A stretch of 42,196 bases of DNA, taken from NCBI GenBank assembly GCA_031262465.1, contig JAISHQ010000063.1, positions 1-42,196 on the forward strand, given 5' to 3'. Under the pieces are notes generated by a model. It was not told the origin of the DNA and made no database searches. It saw only the letters and a program-made list of their open reading frames with translations. Shown here piece by piece: positions 5,790-31,171 of this stretch. The stretch's first letter is position 1. The number at the start of each line of letters is the position of its first letter. The stretch comes from Rikenellaceae bacterium. Its GTDB lineage: Bacteria > Bacteroidota > Bacteroidia > Bacteroidales > Rikenellaceae. A program made the position numbers and the translations under genes.

Positions 5790-5806
5790 TTCTTTTTCGA
5801 TGTACT

Positions 5807-5848
5807 AAAAGAAGCGGCTGTCTCCGAGGGGAGACAGCCGCTTCTTTT
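5807..5848. terminator. Rho-independent terminator with GGCTGTCTC stem (copy 1)
   Basis: A perfect 19-bp stem (5807-5825 with 5830-5848) closes a 4-nt loop, GAGG. The arms begin with an A-run and end with a T-run, so it can terminate both the GH51 gene and the convergent gene ending at 5886. The inner stem GGCTGTCTC/GAGACAGCC recurs in four other terminators in this window. Confidence 0.85.
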
Positions 5849-5885
5849 ATCGCATTATCCAAAAGCCGATGAAGAGGGGCTCGTG

Positions 5886-9516: not shown

Positions 9517-10698
<1,182 letters not shown>

Positions 10699-10754: not shown

Positions 10755-11996
<1,242 letters not shown>

Positions 11997-12038
11997 GCAT
12001 AATTTCAAGAGTTTCTCCTATTTTCGGAGAATTATTTT

Positions 12039-12069
12039 AACTTGATGTCGCAAATTGCGACATCAAGTT
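12039..12069. promoter_or_regulatory. 31-bp palindrome in the ORF6N promoter (candidate operator)
   Basis: AACTTGATGTCGCAA is followed by a central A and its exact reverse complement: 15-bp perfect arms around 12054. With a small bulge the pairing extends to 12029-12078 (GAATTATT with AATAATTC). The right arm overlaps the -33 TTG (12068-12070) of the ORF6N promoter. The central 21 bp (12044-12064) are related to the palindrome inside the ORF6N gene. A dimeric-protein operator is the natural reading, and autoregulation is an inference. Confidence 0.6.
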
Positions 12070-12097
12070 GAATAATTCGGGCAATTCATTACCTTTA
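12068..12097 (+). promoter_or_regulatory. Promoter of the ORF6N gene
   Basis: TTG at 12068-12070, 19 nt, then TACCTTTA at 12090-12097 (one mismatch to TAnnTTTG). The start codon is at 12120, so the leader is about 15-20 nt. Confidence 0.5.
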
Positions 12098-12119
12098 TCC
12101 GCAATTTTAACCCACCAAC

Positions 12120-12704
12120 ATGGAGATTCAAGTCATTCAAAGCAAAATATACGAGGTTCGAGGCGCGCGGGTGATGCTCGATTTCGATTTGGCCAGATTA
12201 TATCAGGTTGAAACACGGACGCTCAAACAGGCCGTGCGCCGCAACATCGAACGATTTCCCGACGATTTTATGTTTCGGCTTTCGCCATCAGAAGCTAACT
12301 ACTTAATAGACATGGGGGTATCACAAATTGTGATACCCCCCGGTTACAACGTCGGTGCCACTGAAATGTTTGCTTTTACCGAGCAAGGGGTATCCATGCT
12401 TTCGGCTGTTTTGCGTAGCCCCGTTGCCACACAAGCCAGCATCTCCATTATGCGGGCATTTGTGGCCATGCGCAATTACATCGCCAACACCTCGACCATC
12501 ACGGCGGAATTGGCCGAAATTCGGGCAACGATCGAGGTATTGAGGCGGGACAGCGATGAGACCCTCGAAGCGGTAAACGACCTGTCGGAAGACACCCGCA
12601 AGCACCTTGATAACTTGTACAATGCCATCGGCGAGCTGTCGGTCAAGCCCGCGCCCGAACCGAAAACCCGCCGCCGGATCGGATTCAATTCCGGTGACGA
12701 ATAA
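12120..12704 (+). CDS. ORF6N-domain DNA-binding protein
   Basis: The 194-residue protein has an ORF6N domain at about residues 5-95: IYEVRGARVMLDFDLARLY, then TLKQAVRRNIERFPDDFMFRL and FAFTEQGVSMLSAVL. A charged, probably coiled-coil region (about 120-165) and an RRRIGF tail follow. ORF6N domains occur in phage-type DNA-binding proteins and in many chromosomal Bacteroidetes genes; the targets are unknown. Codons 65-74 (MGVSQIVIPP), in the variable loop just before the FTEQG helix, are encoded by a perfect 27-bp palindrome. A related palindrome overlaps the promoter. The gene is intact and is followed by a weak terminator at 12711-12740. It sits alone between the esterase and sugar-porter genes. 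Confidence 0.85.
   Translation: MEIQVIQSKIYEVRGARVMLDFDLARLYQVETRTLKQAVRRNIERFPDDFMFRLSPSEANYLIDMGVSQIVIPPGYNVGATEMFAFTEQGVSMLSAVLRSPVATQASISIMRAFVAMRNYIANTSTITAELAEIRATIEVLRRDSDETLEAVNDLSEDTRKHLDNLYNAIGELSVKPAPEPKTRRRIGFNSGDE
12314..12340. repeat. Perfect 27-bp palindrome inside the ORF6N coding sequence
   Basis: GGGGGTATCACAA (12314-12326), a central A at 12327, then the exact reverse complement (12328-12340). It covers most of codons 65-74 without breaking the frame. In mRNA it could form a 12-bp hairpin with a 3-nt loop. Confidence 0.9.
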
Positions 12705-12710
12705 TCCGGC

Positions 12711-12740
12711 ATCGGAGGCATTTTTATTTTGCCTCTCCGA
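12711..12740 (+). terminator. Weak terminator after the ORF6N gene
   Basis: GGAGGCA pairs with TGCCTC across a T-rich loop, and ATCGG pairs with CCGA with a small bulge. It begins 7 nt after the ORF6N stop. The 3' side is not followed by a long T-run, so termination may be partial. Confidence 0.4.
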
Positions 12741-12758
12741 AATATTTGCTTACTTTTG
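12728..12758 (+). promoter_or_regulatory. Promoter of the sugar-porter gene
   Basis: TTTG at 12728-12731, 19 nt, then TACTTTTG at 12751-12758, a full match to the TTTG-N19-TAnnTTTG pattern. Predicted leader about 55 nt before the GTG at 12819. Confidence 0.65.
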
Positions 12759-12818
12759 GAAGCATTTTGTGATTTAAGAAAACTATTCAACCTATAAAAA
12801 CCTAAAAAAACTAACAAA

Positions 12819-14213
12819 GTGGGAAAACAAGCAAAATTTAATGTCGCTTACATCTTTGGGATTACCCTCGTGGCGACGATCGGAGGGCTGTTGTTCGGGT
12901 ACGACACGGCGGTGATCTCCGGGGCGGAAAAATCCGTCGAGGCCTATCTGATCCGGCCATTGGGGCTGAGCGCATTCATTCACGGCGCGACTGTTTCGAG
13001 TGCGCTGATCGGCTGTATCATCGGGGGTATCATCTCCGGCGTTCTCTCCTCGCGGTTGGGGCGGAAACGGTCGCTGATCTTGGCCTCGTTCCTCTTTTTC
13101 GTCTCCGCACTCGGATCGGCCTATCCGGAGTTCCTTTTCTTCACCCCGGGCGAACCGACCATGGGTCTGCTGTTGATGTTTAACTTCTACCGCGTCATCG
13201 GGGGCATCGGGGTCGGGCTGGCTTCGGCTGTCGTGCCGATGTACATCGGGGAGATCGCGCCCGCCGAAGTGCGCGGACGGATGGTGTCGTTCAACCAATT
13301 TGCCATCATTTTCGGGATGTTGGTCGTTTATTTCGTCAACTGGGGTATCGCCTCCGGCCAAACGATCGAGTGGATCAACGACATCGGCTGGCGTTATATG
13401 TTTGGTTCTGAGGCCATTCCGGCTTTCCTGTTCGGAGCACTGCTCTTCTTGGTTCCCGAAACGCCGCGTTACCTCGCCCTGCGCAATCAGAACGACAAGG
13501 CGCTGAGCGTATTGACCAAAATCAACGGCAAAGAGCGGGCACAAAAGATTTTGGGCGAGATCAAAGAGTCGGTTCAGCATTCGGTTTCGGCCAAACTCTT
13601 CTCGTATGGCAAGAAAGTGATTATCGTCGGCGTTTTGCTTTGCATCTTCCAACAATTTGTGGGCATCAACGTGGTGCTTTATTACGCGCCCCGCATCTTT
13701 GAAAGCATGGGGGCTGTGAAGGACGCTTCGATGCTTCAGACCATTGTCATGGGGCTGGTCAATGTCGTATTTACCGTGTTGGCTATCCTGACGGTCGACA
13801 AATGGGGCCGCCGTCCGTTGCTCATCACCGGCTCGATCGGGATGGCCATCGGGATGTTCGCTATCGCCCTCCTGTCGGCGTTCAACATCATCGGTATCAG
13901 CACCTTGATCTTCATCATCGTCTTCACCGCTTCGTTCATGATGTCGTGGGGGCCGATCTGCTGGGTGCTCGTGTCGGAAATCTTCCCGAACAAGATTCGC
14001 GGACAAGCCGTGGCTATCGCCGTGGCCGCTCAATGGGCCGCTAACTTCCTGATTTCGTCGACCTATCCGCCGATGATGGAGTTCAGCAGTACGTTCACTT
14101 ACGCCTTCTACGGCTTGATGGCCGTCCTCTCGGCACTCTTCGTTTGGAAAATGGTTCCCGAAACCAAAGGCAAAACGTTGGAACAGATGGAAGCTGTTTG
14201 GAAAAAGCAATAA
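12819..14213 (+). CDS. xylE: MFS sugar porter, XylE-like D-xylose:H+ symporter
   Basis: The 464-residue protein has twelve predicted membrane segments and the sugar-porter signatures GGLLFGYDTAVISGA in TM1, GRKRS in the loop after TM2, GEIAPAEVRGR, PETPRYLA, the second-half GRRP loop, and PETKGKTLEQME at the C-terminus. QQFVGINVVLYYAP in TM7 matches the substrate-binding QQxxGxN motif. The start is a GTG at 12819; the next codons give the expected cytoplasmic N-terminus (GKQAKFNVAYI). It probably imports xylose or arabinose with protons across the inner membrane, which suits the arabinofuranosidase and esterases upstream. It has its own promoter and a terminator at 14242. Substrate choice among xylose, arabinose, galactose and glucose is inferred. 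Confidence 0.85.
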   Translation: MGKQAKFNVAYIFGITLVATIGGLLFGYDTAVISGAEKSVEAYLIRPLGLSAFIHGATVSSALIGCIIGGIISGVLSSRLGRKRSLILASFLFFVSALGSAYPEFLFFTPGEPTMGLLLMFNFYRVIGGIGVGLASAVVPMYIGEIAPAEVRGRMVSFNQFAIIFGMLVVYFVNWGIASGQTIEWINDIGWRYMFGSEAIPAFLFGALLFLVPETPRYLALRNQNDKALSVLTKINGKERAQKILGEIKESVQHSVSAKLFSYGKKVIIVGVLLCIFQQFVGINVVLYYAPRIFESMGAVKDASMLQTIVMGLVNVVFTVLAILTVDKWGRRPLLITGSIGMAIGMFAIALLSAFNIIGISTLIFIIVFTASFMMSWGPICWVLVSEIFPNKIRGQAVAIAVAAQWAANFLISSTYPPMMEFSSTFTYAFYGLMAVLSALFVWKMVPETKGKTLEQMEAVWKKQ

Positions 14214-14241: not shown

Positions 14242-14275
14242 ACATCGGCTGTCTTCGAATGGAGACAGCCGATGT
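14242..14275. terminator. Terminator with GGCTGTCT stem (copy 2)
   Basis: ACATCGGCTGTCT (14242-14254) pairs with AGACAGCCGATGT (14263-14275), with extra T-G and C-G pairs at the top and a GAAT loop. A T-run follows. It starts 28 nt after the sugar-porter stop and shares its inner stem with four other terminators here. Confidence 0.8.
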
Positions 14276-20430: not shown

Positions 20431-20450
20431 CAACCGCACAACCACAACCA

Positions 20451-20488
20451 CAAACGAGGCTGTCTCCATGCGGAGACAGCCTCGTTTG
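20451..20488. terminator. Terminator with GGCTGTCTC stem (copy 3)
   Basis: A perfect 17-bp stem, CAAACGAGGCTGTCTCC (20451-20467) with its complement (20472-20488), and loop ATGC. A T-rich tail follows. It starts 20 nt after asnA. Confidence 0.85.
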
Positions 20489-20493
20489 TTTAA

Positions 20494-20643: not shown

Positions 20644-20679
20644 AAAAGCGGCTGTCTCAATTATGAGACAGCCGCTTTT
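20644..20679. terminator. Terminator with GGCTGTCTC stem (copy 4), after nifJ
   Basis: A perfect 16-bp stem (20644-20659 with 20664-20679) with loop ATTA. The A-run on the left is a T-run for leftward transcription, so it serves nifJ, which ends at 20711. Confidence 0.85.
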
Positions 20680-31135: not shown

Positions 31136-31171
31136 AAAGCGGCTGTCTCGGAGTTTCGAGACAGCCGCTTT
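31136..31171. terminator. Terminator with GGCTGTCTC stem (copy 5), after nfnB
   Basis: A perfect 15-bp stem, AAAGCGGCTGTCTCG (31136-31150) with its complement (31157-31171), followed by a T-rich tail. It lies 30 nt after the nfnB stop and 84 nt past the end of the convergent lipid-kinase gene. Confidence 0.85.

Follow-up and report, generated by a model that had tools for sequence, protein, structure and literature searches.

The lac operator O2 lies within lacZ and acts as an auxiliary site. It resembles the site described below in being an operator in coding sequence, and differs in that it is located in a target gene and not in the regulator's own. Palindromic DNA that is read in frame is found in the Rickettsia palindromic elements, which are treated as selfish inserts; these are longer and are dispersed over many unrelated genes, whereas the palindromes of ORF6N genes are undispersed in the genome analysed below. 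Phages and DNA viruses encode proteins with KilA-N, BRO and ORF6N domains, which are thought to bind DNA. Genes for ORF6N, KilA-N, RhuM and DUF1016 proteins are often carried by phages and plasmids and are often found in defence islands. In the literature searched, mostly journals open without subscription, their DNA targets are undescribed and no description of intragenic sites in these genes was found.

The closest described system is C.Kpn2I, the controller of the Kpn2I restriction-modification system, which has its site within its own coding region and stalls the elongating polymerase; this intragenic mode has been suggested to be possibly widespread among C.Kpn2I-like proteins (PMC6237814). 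With this precedent, intragenic self-binding is already known in kind and is not a new category. The locus analysed here, part of a stretch of 42,196 nucleotides from a Rikenellaceae bacterium (the window), would share with C.Kpn2I a regulator's site inside its own coding region, a likeness that is statistical in nature, in that an HTH code predicts the internal palindrome. C.Kpn2I has an XRE-type HTH and, close to its start codon, a C-box comprising two dimer sites. The families considered here are instead ORF6N, KilA-N, RhuM and DUF1016, and the Pfam match of the window protein is to ORF6N only; the site is a single near-perfect palindrome about 200–300 bp inside the gene, nearly universal in the family and co-varying with the recognition helix.

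Palindromes inside ORF6N genes

The product of the ORF6N gene in the window (Table 1) matched the ORF6N profile (PF10543) with an E value of 9e-30, at 103 bits against a curated cut-off of 27.8. Codons 65–74 of this gene contain, in frame, the sequence GGGGGTATCACAA-A-TTGTGATACCCCC, in which the arms are complementary at 13/13 positions on either side of the central A; the perfect palindrome reported in the earlier note is therefore confirmed. Only two perfect palindromes of at least 17 bp are present in the window, this one and a 31-bp palindrome upstream of the gene. They have a common core, TRTCRCAAATTGYGAYA, that has no match elsewhere in the window. When the gene was subjected to synonymous codon shuffling, a length of 27 bp was reached in 1 of 2000 shuffles, with a median of about 10, in keeping with the earlier assertion that such a palindrome is very unlikely to arise by chance in coding sequence.

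Table 1. Features of the ORF6N locus (positions in the window)
Feature	Position	Strand	Remarks
Upstream palindrome, 31 bp perfect core at 12039-12069, AACTTGATGTCGCAAATTGCGACATCAAGTT	12036..12072	.	Same core type as internal palindrome
TACCTTTA, possible Bacteroidota -7 box (TAnnTTTG type)	12090..12097	+	Candidate suggested by sequence
ORF6N-domain gene	12120..12704	+	Product of 194 aa, predicted to have an HTH DNA-binding domain at the N terminus and a long helix at the C terminus
Codons of predicted HTH, helices 21-27 and 32-41	12180..12242	+	AlphaFold2 model
Codons R33, T34, Q37	12216..12230	+	Co-vary with half-site positions 7, 4, 4/5 across homologues
Intragenic palindrome, 27 bp perfect	12314..12340	.	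Proposed operator for encoded protein; core TATCACAAATTGTGATA at 12319-12335

The homologues compared were ORF6N genes of the same genome and of its family, order and phylum, together with genes taken from named genomes, phage contigs and plasmids; the family samples were mostly best hits per genome. Expected palindrome counts were derived from synonymous codon shuffles within each gene. This comparison of homologues with codon-shuffled controls, which the earlier note had proposed, revealed a very large excess of self-complementarity. A strong palindrome (score of at least 10) was found in 120 of 184 distinct ORF6N domains versus 2.2 expected, and 55 of the 184 reached a score of at least 13 versus 0.15 expected. 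Two later batches of genes, gathered irrespective of palindromes, were also palindrome-bearing. Palindrome density in other ORFs of the same loci was 17-fold lower (0.066 versus 1.12 per kb). The position is constant across homologues, always the loop before FTEQG, and the idea that the palindrome replaces a variable loop did not hold up, as the same loop is palindromic in nearly all homologues. Close relatives of the SQNV type have a mismatched centre and shorter palindromes.

In some DUF1016 genes (L312, L184 and L167) and ORF6N genes (L124, L161 and L065), the loop encoded by the palindrome is duplicated in tandem and in frame, so that a single gene has two or three operator-like palindromes. 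Two Segatella copri plasmids of 3–4 kb (L218 and L219) are minimal, with no genes other than one for replication and one for ORF6N, the latter with an internal palindrome.

Comparison of the coding sequences argues that the palindrome is selected at the level of DNA and not for the protein. Peptides that differ from one another (NLRSQIVTSS, SLRSQIVILK, NWKSQIVISN, LRFQIGTSS and GVSQIVIPP) are encoded by DNA that is palindromic in every case, and the same DNA core is read in two frames, as LRSQIA and as VANCD. Symmetry extends to the exact dyad. The codon count for CAA was 149:4 at the palindrome centre versus 529:358 elsewhere (P 3e-25), and that for ATT at the centre was 77:1. Conserved amino acids alone were ruled out as an explanation by the codon shuffles, by the use of two reading frames and by a split between the synonymous codons TCA and TCG; neither a lack of excess among homologues nor an adequate account in terms of protein sequence was found.

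Correspondence between recognition helix and half-site

Covariation between half-site bases and protein columns was measured as mutual information with average-product correction, using columns that exclude residues encoded by the palindrome. The strongest links joined residue 37 to half-site positions 4 (Z 14.6) and 5 (Z 6.8), residue 34 to position 4 (Z 9.9), and residue 33 to position 7 (Z 7.1). The AlphaFold2 models are single-chain and of moderate confidence. In that of the ORF6N protein (mean pLDDT 84), residues 33, 34 and 37 are all located on helix 32–41, the second HTH helix, and the palindrome-coded residues surround a low-confidence loop, with pLDDT below 50 at residues 73–77. The predicted HTH suggests that the ORF6N protein binds DNA. 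In a fold comparison with the PDB, the Dachshund/Ski DNA-binding fold was a weak match, with an E value above 0.03. Sequence searches against solved structures returned only chance matches, to coiled coils for ORF6N and one each for KilA-N and RhuM.

The covarying positions can be read as a code. Core CA occurred with Q37 (123/123), CG with E37 (58/58, with R34 in 57 of these), GC with R37 (17/18) and TC with K37 (13/13), and at position 7, G was paired with K33 and A with R33. The code is valid in both reading frames and separates the synonymous serine codons TCA and TCG. For the window gene, R33/T34/Q37 predicts A at position 7 and core CA, and the internal palindrome agrees (TATCACAA); the other two full-length ORF6N genes of the genome also fit, with KAR alongside GGTGCC and RVQ alongside AGATCAC. 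The prediction rule was fixed before new genes were scored. In a first set of unseen genes the core was right in 33/33 and position 7 in 29/31, and a further set gave 34/34 for the core. Over the two sets, recognition-helix residues predicted the core in every one of 67 unseen genes, and we therefore take the palindrome to be, very probably, the DNA site to which the encoded protein binds. This is the best-supported step in our interpretation, and of the possibilities raised in the earlier note, a site bound by the protein itself is the one that these sequence data strongly support.

Switches between core classes were counted on a quick tree built without the covarying columns, on which the core class changed at least 57 times. 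Among the minority of independent pairs that lie on supported branches, the residue switched with the core in 8/8 cases for CG/E37 and in 10/11 for CA/Q37, with 0 in the opposite direction. Control columns 43, 59, 96 and 107 showed no association with core switches on the same tree. An additional code word, outside the four classes, was observed in S34/L37 proteins (L675 and L669), which have a T-rich core (GGTTTCAAATTGAAACC in L675).

Proposed autorepression and alternative readings

We consider it likely that the palindrome is an intragenic operator bound by the encoded ORF6N dimer, with autorepression by an RNA polymerase roadblock as the most likely outcome. The dimer would bind within its own coding sequence, its second HTH helix reading half-site positions 4, 5 and 7 via residues 37, 34 and 33, and the bound protein would block the elongating polymerase about 200 bp into the gene. 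The palindrome, its selection as DNA and the protein-DNA code are shown by the statistics of the sequences, whereas we infer physical binding and, from the example of C.Kpn2I, repression and the roadblock; no binding or expression data for ORF6N proteins were found in the literature searched. The shorter palindromes with a mismatched centre in relatives of the SQNV type, and the poor fit of the window's upstream palindrome to the protein (see below), count against this reading. An operator inside coding sequence travels with the gene, which would therefore stay self-limited even where its mobility had placed it downstream of a foreign promoter. The DNA target would be readable from the gene itself, natural variation would yield a recognition code, and specificity would be directly testable and perhaps designable. 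A coding sequence shaped by the binding of its own product would also confound the usual interpretation of synonymous and amino-acid substitutions. More tentatively, four or more mobile gene families may be lock-and-key units in which the coding sequence is both key (recognition helix) and lock (palindrome), with allele pairs that diversify like a self/non-self tag and each gene recognising and controlling copies of itself wherever they have landed.

It is unlikely, in our judgement, that the protein binds its own gene at a site that serves as an identity tag and not in the control of expression level. Mobile copies with the same key-and-lock allele would then silence or exclude each other, as in superinfection or incompatibility, and alleles would diversify to escape. 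The frequency of code switching on the tree, the three different codes of the genome's three full ORF6N genes, and the location of such genes on phages, plasmids and restriction-modification islands are as expected for a tag. Frequent switching also fits plain avoidance of cross-talk, however, and paralogues within a genome did not avoid each other's codes to a significant extent (0.600 versus 0.623, P 0.11), a result on which cross-talk avoidance within genomes was likewise rejected.

The palindrome could in principle be a recombination site at which mobile genes exchange halves or cassettes are inserted, the protein being an accessory factor. Integrases and recombinases are frequent neighbours and mobile islands contain stand-alone sites between their genes, but no breakpoints were seen at the palindrome, and the helix is encoded upstream of it, so that swapping at the loop would break the link between site and helix. 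We regard this function as very improbable.

An mRNA hairpin affecting stability, translation or attenuation, which the earlier note had also suggested, has next to no likelihood in our estimation. A perfect inverted repeat in the transcript would fold, and the palindrome centre does vary somewhat. Structured RNA, however, is expected to tolerate G-U far more than A-C, and over the four families no such tolerance was apparent, with G-T and A-C mismatches numbering 58 and 41 and no clear G-T excess. The central four bases, which would form the loop of a hairpin, are under the strongest codon bias, the symmetry runs to the dyad itself, and the bases track HTH residues, which a hairpin does not require; an Rfam search of 11900-12900 returned no match. 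A strongly codon-biased centre, together with the lack of a clear G-T excess, points to double-stranded DNA. Hardly more credible is the earlier suggestion of a scar left by selfish palindromic DNA inserted in frame, as in Rickettsia: the loop is tolerant and a few genes have in-frame tandem duplications (L124, L161 and L065, and L312 in DUF1016), but position and codon phase are fixed within each family, the sequence type differs by family and is tied to the HTH code, and almost no copies exist elsewhere in the genome, where sites were present in ORF6N genes and upstream of them, and otherwise only as two weak matches.

Upstream sites and other gene families

In addition to the proposed intragenic operator, the window gene has the second palindrome, which lies 48 bp 5′ of the start codon. 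It has core CG and G at position 7, mismatched to the window protein's own code (Q37, R33), and instead fits an R34/E37 ORF6N protein, being identical at 31/31 positions to the internal palindrome of one such gene (L632). Upstream and internal half-sites of the same gene agreed at 0.64 versus 0.48 for shuffled pairs (0/5000), not always in the individual gene, and about 14 of 23 listed upstream sites, as counted by eye, fit their own protein. Upstream sites thus appear to be only partly self-directed. Bacteroidota -7 boxes have the consensus TAnnTTTG; given the candidate box in Table 1, a -33 element would fall where the upstream palindrome has its right-hand border. A scan for consensus promoters and terminators was uninformative. 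DNA looping between upstream and internal sites was not supported as a general feature, as their spacing, 273 bp or 26.0 turns in the window and about 217 to 590 bp elsewhere, has no constant phase. In an empty-site comparison with relatives, the neighbouring transporter gene matched, and no ORF6N-type site was found beside it.

Palindromes of other types were found within genes of the other families: TTTTAATTATACCGAATTCGGTATAATTAAAA-type in 76/82 KilA-N genes versus 2.1 expected, AACTGTTCGGAAATTCCGAACAGTT-type in 59/111 RhuM genes versus 2.8 expected, and AATTTTCCAGACACTGTCTGGAAAATT-type in 48/77 DUF1016 nuclease genes versus 0.8 expected. In KilA-N, residues 37, 40 and 41, on helix 35–42 of the KilA-N model, are coupled to the variable bases of the palindrome; in RhuM this holds for residues 40–45 and in DUF1016, more weakly, for residues 76, 79 and 80. 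Plasmid copies with the same pattern were present in Aeromonas, Xenorhabdus, Streptococcus, Pasteurella, Arcobacter, Roseomonas, Pseudonocardia and Selenomonas.

ORF6N-type sites were also intergenic, in the vicinity of genes for type I restriction, RhuM, integrase and DUF1016, and from this distribution a wider regulon of ORF6N proteins is possible. Stand-alone palindromes of this type (CTGGTCRCAAATTGYGACC) were observed 40–140 bp 5′ of DUF1016 nuclease genes in restriction-modification islands (L184, L187 and the pattern matches G161:C385:5832 and G187:C82:352), where cross-regulation of DUF1016 genes may possibly occur. One KilA-N gene (L211; 2622, 2909) has a palindrome of its own type inside and a RhuM-like palindrome upstream.

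Two further observations concern the remainder of the window. The ORF6N gene is adjoined by tandem, related genes for secreted esterase-like proteins (9517-10674 and 10755-11921, minus strand), which are 74% identical over a stretch of about 500 bp. Intergenic hairpins at 5806-5849, 14242-14275, 20450-20489, 20644-20679 and 31136-31171 have common GGCTGTCTC/GAGACAGCC arms with loops of 4–8 nt, and perhaps represent a repeated terminator or REP-like element.
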